Assembly (NCBI RefSeq): GCF_001428845.1
Contig: NZ_LMIU01000023.1
Span: 186,001 to 250,000 of the forward strand
Source of the DNA: Achromobacter sp. Root83
GTDB lineage: Bacteria > Pseudomonadota > Gammaproteobacteria > Burkholderiales > Burkholderiaceae_B
DNA length: 64,000 bases
Direction of reading: 5' to 3'
In this document: positions 13,996 to 15,095 of the stretch, one piece after another
Layout: each line of letters starts with the position of its first letter
Numbering within the stretch: position 1 is the stretch's first letter
The notes under the pieces: model-generated
Told to the model about the DNA's origin: nothing
The model's database searches: none
Seen by the model: only the letters and a program-made list of their open reading frames with translations
Made by a program: the position numbers and the translations under genes

Positions 13996-14922
13996 TCAGC
14001 GCAGCTTGGGGTTGAGCGCGTCGCGCAGCCAGTCGCCCAGCAGGTTGACCGATAGCACCAGCGCCACCAGCGCAATGCCGGGGAAGATGGAGATCCACCA
14101 CATGCCAGAAAACAGGTAGCTGTTGCCGATGCGGATCAGCGTGCCCAGCGATGGCGCGGTGGGCGGCACGCCCACGCCCAGGAAGGACAGCGTGGCCTCG
14201 GTGATGATGGCGATCGCCAGGTGGATGGTGGCGATGACGAGCACCGGACCCATGACGTTGGGCAGGATGTGGCGGCGCAGGATGGTGATGGGGCCGATGC
14301 CGATCAGCCGCGCGGCCTGGACGTATTCCTTGTTGCGCTCCACCAGCGTCGAGCCGCGGACGGTGCGCGCATATTGCACCCAGCCCGAGATGCCGATGGC
14401 GAATATCAGCACATACAGCGCAAGCTGATCGTGCATGTCGCGCGGCAGCAGGCCGCGCGCGACGCCGTCGATCAGCAGCGCCACCAGGATGGCGGGAAAG
14501 GAAAGCTGCACGTCGGCGATGCGCATGATGAAGCTGTCGATGCGCCCGCCGGCGTAACCGCTGATCAGGCCGAGCGTCACGCCCAGTACCATCGAGAACA
14601 GCACCGAGGCGAAGCCGACCAGCAAGGACACGCGCGAGCCATACATGACCGCCGACAGGATGTCGCGGCCCTGGTCGTCCGTGCCCAGCAGGAAGTCCGG
14701 GCTGCCGCCCTCTTCCCAGGCAGGCGGCGTATTGGCGTCCATGATGCTCAGGGACGCCAGATCGAAGGGATTGTGCGGTGCGACCAGCGGCGCGAACAGC
14801 GCGCCAAGCAGGATGACCAGCGTGACGATCGCGGCGACGATGGCGCCGGGAGACCGCTTGAAGCTGTGCCACAGGTCGCTGTCGGCCGCGCGTGAAAAGA
14901 AGGGAGCGATGCGAGCAATCAT
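13996..14922 (-). CDS. Peptide ABC transporter permease, DppC/GsiD type
   Basis: A 308-residue inner-membrane permease with about six helices. It carries the OppBC N-terminal segment (DLWHSFKRSPGAIVAAIVT) and the cytoplasmic EAA loop (YVQAARLIGIGPITILRRHI). The start at 14922 is preferred because AAGGA lies 6 nt upstream and the ATG overlaps the stop of the preceding small frame (ATGA). A longer in-frame reading through the upstream repeat is possible but would add only repeat-derived residues. Confidence 0.94.
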   Translation of the reverse strand: MIARIAPFFSRAADSDLWHSFKRSPGAIVAAIVTLVILLGALFAPLVAPHNPFDLASLSIMDANTPPAWEEGGSPDFLLGTDDQGRDILSAVMYGSRVSLLVGFASVLFSMVLGVTLGLISGYAGGRIDSFIMRIADVQLSFPAILVALLIDGVARGLLPRDMHDQLALYVLIFAIGISGWVQYARTVRGSTLVERNKEYVQAARLIGIGPITILRRHILPNVMGPVLVIATIHLAIAIITEATLSFLGVGVPPTAPSLGTLIRIGNSYLFSGMWWISIFPGIALVALVLSVNLLGDWLRDALNPKLR

Positions 14923-15095
14923 GCGAATTCCTTTTTTACCGCCGGGCCGTCCCAAGGTAAAAGGCGCCCCCTCGGGGGGCAGCAAGCCGAAGGCGCGGCG
15001 TGGGGGCTCTTTTTTACCGCCGGGCCGTCCCAAGGTAAAAAGCGCCCCCTCGGGGGGCAGCAAGCCGAAGGCGTGGCGTGGGGGCTTTTGTTCAT
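14919..15095 (-). CDS. Putative 58-residue junction micropeptide with two CCPP units
   Basis: A 59-codon frame fills the gap between dppB and dppC exactly. Its ATG overlaps the dppB stop (ATGA) and its TGA overlaps the dppC ATG (ATGA). The peptide starts MNKS and contains two tandem 26-residue units, [15 protein letters not shown] and [15 protein letters not shown], each followed by a linker reading FLPWDGPAVKK or LLPWDGPAVKK. The same core occurs at the murA/hisG junction. No signal peptide or known domain is seen, and the start lacks a strong ribosome site, so translation would rely on coupling to dppB. It may be a real Cys-rich peptide or just a stop-free linker. Confidence 0.5.
   Translation of the reverse strand: MNKSPHATPSACCPPRGRFLPWDGPAVKKSPHAAPSACCPPRGRLLPWDGPAVKKEFA
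14931..15086 (-). repeat. Two tandem 78-bp repeat units between dppB and dppC
   Basis: Units 15009-15086 and 14931-15008 are adjacent, each 26 codons, and differ at only a few positions. Each contains the hairpin GCCCCCC-GAG-GGGGGC-type sequence and a second C-run (AGCCCCCACGC) that could compete for the same G-run, and ends with CCTTGGGACGGCCCGGCGG. A third copy of the core is at 50629-50673. Confidence 0.9.

Follow-up and report, generated by a model that had tools for sequence, protein, structure and literature searches.

The dppB-dppC junction

In the 64,000-nt stretch of Achromobacter sp. Root83 DNA considered here (contig NZ_LMIU01000023.1, positions 186,001 to 250,000; hereafter the window), two permease genes on the minus strand are joined by a micro-frame that contains two tandem copies of a dispersed repeat. 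The upstream, dppB-like gene occupies 15092..16063 and stops with TGA, while the downstream, dppC-like gene occupies 13996..14922 and begins ATGATT; both products belong to the Pfam family BPD_transp_1, and the gene names are approximate, as no NCBIfam equivalog reached its cut-off for them. The micro-frame (14919..15095, minus strand) comprises 58 codons without internal stop plus TGA, and it is fitted to its neighbours by an ATGA overlap at each end: its ATG (15095..15093) overlaps the upstream stop TGA (15094..15092), and its own TGA (14921..14919) overlaps the downstream ATG (14922..14920). The initial annotation had described the 177-nt gap in these terms, correctly to the base, and the two tandem units of 78 bp that it proposed, a length divisible by 3, are confirmed: unit 1, first in the transcript, spans 15009..15086, and unit 2, 97% identical to it, spans 14931..15008, both on the minus strand. 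The pair is the top of the 11 rows given by Tandem Repeats Finder for the window (score 298); the core motif reported in the same annotation is present in all three repeat units of the window, the third of which lies between murA and hisG.

Among 43 Achromobacter genomes, the dppB-dppC junction carries an intact repeat in 4 (2, 1, 1 and 3 units), a remnant with a 23-nt gap in 2, and is empty in 37, where a spacer of 9-33 nt separates the genes, with no overlap. All four intact frames are open, in phase, flanked by ATGA at both ends and finish at the same ATGA; their gaps measure 91, 91, 169 and 223 nt, the last corresponding to three units less 24 nt. The upstream gene stops with TGA at all six sites that are filled or hold a remnant, and with TAA or TAG at all 37 empty ones (Fisher p 1.6 × 10⁻⁷, uncorrected for shared descent), and it is this TGA that creates the ATG of the micro-frame. 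On the other side, the downstream gene as called starts with ATGA in 37/37 empty sites; therefore, the dppC-side overlap is not a product of the insertion. An origin of both overlaps from a duplicated ancestral ATGA overlap was also considered and rejected, given the spacer found in the empty sites.

A Shine-Dalgarno-like AAGGA (14929..14933, minus strand) lies 5′ of the downstream permease start, and AGGA or GGGA is found at this position in most empty sites, as judged by eye. Upstream of its start, the frame of the downstream permease stays open as far as a TTG at 15063, across the repeat; the start was set at 14922, since this is where the gene begins in relatives that lack the repeat. A search of Rfam with positions 14600-15400 of the window gave no match at gathering score. 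The 575-aa protein encoded 3′ of the permeases (12261-13988, minus strand) has two ABC ATPase stretches (Pfam ABC_tran), instead of the two being separate genes.

The murA-hisG junction

The third repeat copy of the window (50598..50673, minus strand; contig 236598-236673) lies between murA (50682..51950, minus strand; TIGR01072 over cut-off) and hisG (49931..50605, minus strand; TIGR00070 over cut-off). Here a second bridging micro-frame, of 27 codons plus TGA (50602..50685, minus strand), shares ATGA with the murA stop and with the hisG start. The junction is filled in 12 of the 43 genomes and empty in 31, and the empty sites show a 4-nt ATGA overlap (29/31) or a TGATG overlap (2/31). Each of the 12 filled sites is flanked by two ATGA overlaps and has a frame that is open, in phase and 27, 36 or 52 codons long, with gaps of 76 nt (8 genomes), 103 nt (1) or 151 nt (3), all 1 mod 3; thus, an overlap-type architecture is found in 43/43 genomes, whether or not the repeat is present. 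A Shine-Dalgarno-like AGGA or GGAG precedes the left ATG within 17 nt in every genome. In line with the idea that the unit length preserves the frame, the added units at these two junctions measure 78 and 75, both multiples of 3.

secB-gpsA and control junctions

The same -4 nt overlap is seen at a third junction, secB-gpsA. This locus was found in 42/43 genomes and read in 40, G002 and G033 not being read for gpsA; the 15 rows in which the secB stop was unparsed show an empty site. The repeat is present in 4/40; the micro-frame starts at an ATGA located 17 or 18 nt past the secB stop, and in 4/4 it ends in a TGA that overlaps the gpsA ATG. The frame used is unlike those of the other junctions, giving one 26-residue peptide in two genomes and close variants in the other two. 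What is seen at dppB-dppC, murA-hisG and secB-gpsA is the overlap architecture, which would allow coupling.

Two junctions whose genes do not overlap in the absence of the repeat served as controls and show what chance can yield. Between sucC and sucD, which are otherwise 19-25 nt apart, the repeat is found in 20/43 genomes; none of the 20 shows an ATGA overlap at either end, and some frame with an ATG start spans the gap in 10/20 (open bridges compared with murA-hisG, Fisher p 0.004, uncorrected for shared descent). At the uncoupled SDR-murJ junction 30/42 loci were read, G010 being without the upstream gene; the repeat occurs in 14 of the 30, and the gap residues 0/1/2 are distributed 4/7/3 (gap phase compared with murA-hisG, Fisher p 0.006, likewise uncorrected for shared descent). 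Two of these 14 carry an overlap at both ends, TAATG on the left and ATGA on the right, with frames of 83 and 145 codons. The longer one, in G005 (L500/L322), consists of four tandem units and extends from the TAATG overlap with the upstream stop as far as the murJ ATGA; the 83-codon version is that of the window's own genome (L005). The repeat itself is clearly real; the both-end overlap alone is weaker evidence, given its frequency of 0/20 and 2/14 at the controls.

Positions of the repeat in the genome

In its own genome (6.2 Mb, 28 contigs) the repeat gives 24 matches at E 0.001 or better, in 16 places; it is present in 43/43 Achromobacter genomes searched and in at least 55/151 genomes from a sample of the family that includes Achromobacter itself. 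Its positions were surveyed at 115 sites, namely 15 of the 16 own places, a 39-bp partial copy (L023) being left out, and 100 of at least 103 clusters of sites in four related genomes, taken from a list ordered by similarity to the dppB-dppC copy. Genes were called by a simple codon-usage script, which, when tried on two stretches of the window, recovered the genes expected there. The survey placed 92 sites between genes, 4 in called genes and 12 at contig edges, with 7 unoriented for want of a core match; in the four apparent in-gene cases (L291, L295, L367 and L013), the copies may truly lie within genes or reflect errors of the caller.

The 92 classified sites include 32 with genes in the direction of the repeat, 29 convergent, 24 with genes against the repeat and 7 divergent. 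Overlap at both ends, tested at 29 of the 32 co-directional sites (gap under 460 nt), was found at 6/92, all belonging to three junctions: dppB-dppC, murA-hisG and SDR-murJ. Three known bridges fall outside the survey, the unoriented L349 and two of the three left-out clusters, in G016. The left end of the repeat lies at most 12 nt from the upstream stop at 39/61 sites whose left gene points at it, and the right end at most 12 nt from a stop at 3/53; the repeat is thus above all an element that follows stop codons, and a bridge only on occasion. The initial annotation had seen in it a cassette that inserts at operon junctions without breaking translation. The bridge does recur with ATGA at both ends, in 4/43 genomes at dppB-dppC and in 12/43 at murA-hisG; a dedicated junction cassette is not supported, in view of the minority of co-directional sites, the few both-end overlaps (most copies lie outside bridges), the frames that differ between junctions, and a dppC-side ATGA that the insertion did not create.

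Structure and identity of the repeat

As read by eye, the unit begins with GCCCCCACGC; of the three hairpins that follow, the first is variable, the second is CCCCCC-GAG-GGGGC, and the third combines a conserved loop with a variable stem. In 94 copies, 96% of the seven stem pairs of the third hairpin form, G-T pairs counted, compared with 75% (sd 1.1%) when the arms are shuffled among copies; these compensatory changes argue that the family has been shaped as a structured element and not as a peptide gene. Over the 94 survey sites the sequence of this stem varies while its pairing is kept, and it occurs in a few discrete types (TTTTGCC, TTTCCCC, CCCCGCC, TTTTACC and TTTCATC), and its right arm resembles the insertion target at some junctions. 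The coding strand folds with no excess stability over shuffled sequences (z 0.22 for the 78-nt unit and 0.32 for the whole 177 nt; -1.20 for the other strand).

A subfamily B is recognized by the loop TTGAGGCGGCTCGG and the end GATGAA (L366 and L334, at secB-gpsA). This end coincides with the downstream start codon at hisG and gpsA; elsewhere, mostly in arrays at gene ends, it does not, and a subfamily B end at the start codon was not found as a rule (10 of 30 loci read, murA-hisG and secB-gpsA copies only). At murA-hisG, secB-gpsA and sucC-sucD, the flanks are suggestive of a target duplication of TAAA or ATGAA at insertion; no general rule of this kind was seen among the survey sites.

The unit measures 78 bp; full matches elsewhere are about 70-84 bp long, and the tandem spacing reaches 91 bp among the matches listed. 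The GC content is 70.5% for the unit and 76% on average for 108 survey copies (range 65-87%), some of which exceed the published range for the Beta-proteobacterial repeat element (BRE). BREs were described as 75-91 bp long, with a GC content of about 69% (63.7-78.9), mostly intergenic, tandem and variable in copy number; their hosts are Alcaligenaceae and Comamonadaceae, and one copy is located at 3605317-3605401 of B. pertussis Tohama I (Hot et al. 2011; PMC3110155). The Achromobacter repeat resembles them in being 78 bp long, GC-rich, tandem and placed between genes at 92 sites as opposed to 4 within genes, in varying in number at a single locus (1, 1, 2 and 3 units at dppB-dppC), and in its range over the family sample and Hydrogenophaga borbori. 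By length, GC, tandem arrays and taxonomic range, and as compared by description, it is thus probably a BRE; three of its motifs are not in the main text of PMC3110155, the BRE sequences standing in an additional file. The available text of that paper proposes no function for BREs, nor any frame or coupling. A literature search, mainly outside subscription papers, turned up no report of BREs with bridging frames.

History of the insertions

On a tree built from three gene ends, the filled genomes are scattered over the genus, and on dppC-only and murA-only trees they are not grouped together either. By parsimony, murA-hisG requires 8 changes versus 11 losses, which is near even; dppB-dppC requires 4 changes (6 with remnants) versus 14 (15) losses, and several gains are favoured. 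The left flanks at murA-hisG are identical in the scattered lineages G008, G010, G013, G016 and G026, which would favour one old insertion at this junction followed by exact losses. The conservation of the frames could be due in part to shared descent.

A diverged copy of the repeat lies outside the genus in Hydrogenophaga borbori, a member of the Comamonadaceae, where it separates a dppB-like permease gene from the gene that follows (L112:3479-3575). It contains a 28-codon frame that starts 2 nt past the permease stop and ends in a TGA with 1 nt left before the following ATG; in L095, L106, L124 and L132, which lack the repeat there, TGA and ATG are likewise 1 nt apart.

A proposed translational relay and its alternatives

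These data fit best, in our view, with a tolerated, dispersed repeat of three hairpins that landed after the stop codon of a gene within an operon, and whose frame would relay ribosomes between the two genes by termination-reinitiation; we consider this reading fairly probable. Ribosomes that end the upstream gene would take up the micro-frame at the first ATGA, read it through the hairpins and restart on the downstream gene at the second ATGA, so that the two genes would stay coupled despite the insertion. The old hisG start at murA-hisG, together with its Shine-Dalgarno-like sequence, would now start the micro-frame, and hisG would begin at the second ATGA. The peptide would be a by-product, and the selected property, if any, would be an open frame in the right phase. 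Published work is consistent with such a relay: overlapping gene pairs were reported as strictly coupled in 13/14 tested cases (PMC6728339), a spacing of about 20 nt as nearly abolishing coupling in six tested pairs (PMC10666635), and short upstream frames as able to deliver ribosomes (PMC12548453). The same 4-nt overlap as in ATGA/TGATG coupling by termination-reinitiation is found here at both ends of the micro-frame; in the reported cases it is annotated genes that overlap, whereas here a repeat-derived frame is interposed (PMC6728339, PMC10666635).

The pattern might instead be one of coincidence and descent: most frames of the repeat contain few stops, the flanking ATGA would be there by chance and the arrangement would simply have been inherited, with neither selection nor relay. 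Several observations point in this direction and weigh against the relay. In a neutral star-tree simulation, all eight murA-hisG frames of equal length stay open with probability 0.40 (0.06 if the left ATG is also kept), so that openness by itself is weak evidence in DNA this rich in GC; moreover, murA and hisG themselves partly hold the outer codons of the micro-frame at this junction. At sucC-sucD the gap residue is kept in 18/20 although the genes do not overlap, so that descent alone can preserve phase, and the uncoupled SDR-murJ junction produced a both-end overlap in 2/14. As for dppB-dppC, the downstream ATGA is already there in the 37 empty sites; a Shine-Dalgarno-like AAGGA of its own precedes the dppC-like gene, which in the empty sites also has its 9-33 nt spacer and so can probably do without coupling; finally, in Bordetella petrii, which is not an Achromobacter, the upstream stop of an empty site is TGA, so that beyond the genus TGA is not exclusive to filled sites and the contrast between stops is weakened. 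Coincidence, on the other hand, accounts poorly for the 12/12 of murA-hisG, which fall into three length classes and come from scattered branches of the genus tree, for the 4/4 of dppB-dppC despite changes in copy number and a 24-nt shortening, for the upstream TGA in 6/6 filled or remnant versus 0/37 empty sites, and for the 4/4 of secB-gpsA. It is this combined pattern, not openness alone, that argues for selection on the frame, and we regard coincidence with descent as unlikely.

The three hairpins could also be what matters, as an intercistronic RNA structure (an attenuator, a stability element or a structure insulating termination) in which the frame is incidental. The compensatory changes in the third hairpin (96% versus 75% of pairs) and the closeness of the left end to the upstream stop at 39/61 sites speak for it, and stable structures right after stop codons have been reported to govern reinitiation (PMC7518266). 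However, the coding strand folds no better than its shuffles, and in several murA-hisG copies (e.g., G010 and G035; by eye) substitutions have shortened the second hairpin while the frame persists; the hairpin of G010 is shortened and not destroyed, as four pairs can remain, which slightly lowers the confidence in the relay. An RNA element may explain the family overall, but not the overlap at both ends, and as an account of the bridges it is a serious candidate, if a rather unlikely one. A micropeptide with a function in metal binding or redox sensing, as conjectured in the initial annotation from the Cys-Cys-Pro-Pro motif, is highly improbable. The corresponding DNA, TGC TGC CCC CC, is indeed found at 79/108 survey sites; however, it is in frame at some junctions only, secB-gpsA and SDR-murJ using other frames. 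In the eight equal-length frames among the 12 of murA-hisG, pN (0.117) is about equal to pS (0.131), with 8, 7 and 9 variable columns over the three codon positions, and both Cys and Pro are replaced in the peptide of G010. The micro-frame peptides gave no Pfam or NCBIfam match at E 0.01. There is thus no excess of nonsynonymous changes, yet purifying selection is not visible either; the peptide is under no visible selection, and the near equality of pN and pS, together with the use of other frames at other junctions, leaves the Cys-Cys micropeptide unsupported.

Relation to known repeats

Mycobacterial interspersed repetitive units (MIRUs) have a unit length of 77-101 bp, occur in tandem copies and are not known to show strong dyad symmetry. 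According to a 2025 review, they appear mobile and insert at start codons in such a way that the frame they carry is coupled to the gene at -4 nt, and this coupling likely limits the impact of the insertion (PMC12548453, citing Supply et al. 1997). The Achromobacter repeat is similar in that, at a few junctions, it bears a frame coupled, as it seems, to the next gene by a -4 nt overlap; unlike MIRUs, it is betaproteobacterial, has three hairpins and uses several frames, and bridging is confined to a minority of the surveyed copies. It may therefore be described as BRE-like by family and, at a few junctions, as MIRU-like by architecture, the latter likeness being one of description that does not imply homology. 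Enterobacterial RU-1, RU-2 and RU-3 are likewise reported as small mobile repeats with open frames, found within annotated gene loci (PMC2759123), whereas the Achromobacter frames stand between genes.

A bolder, and quite doubtful, extension would be a MIRU-like system of Betaproteobacteria, in which the BRE subfamily with the loop TTGAGGCGGCTCGG and the end GATGAA inserts at coupled start codons. The right arm of its third hairpin would supply or capture the new start, hidden until ribosomes on the micro-frame open the hairpin, and a plain overlap would thereby be turned into a strict, possibly regulated relay.

The coupling of a repeat-borne frame to a gene is already known from mycobacterial MIRUs; what sets the present case apart is the taxon, the strongly paired structure, the use of several frames and the minority behaviour. 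The genus offers a natural experiment on the tolerance of dispersed repeats in operons, since one and the same junction is available with 0, 1, 2 or 3 copies and uncoupled gene pairs can be set against coupled ones. If the relay is true, the small predicted CCPP proteins derived from the repeat would be by-products and not peptides to study, and repeat micro-frames that deliver ribosomes would have arisen in mycobacteria and in Betaproteobacteria.
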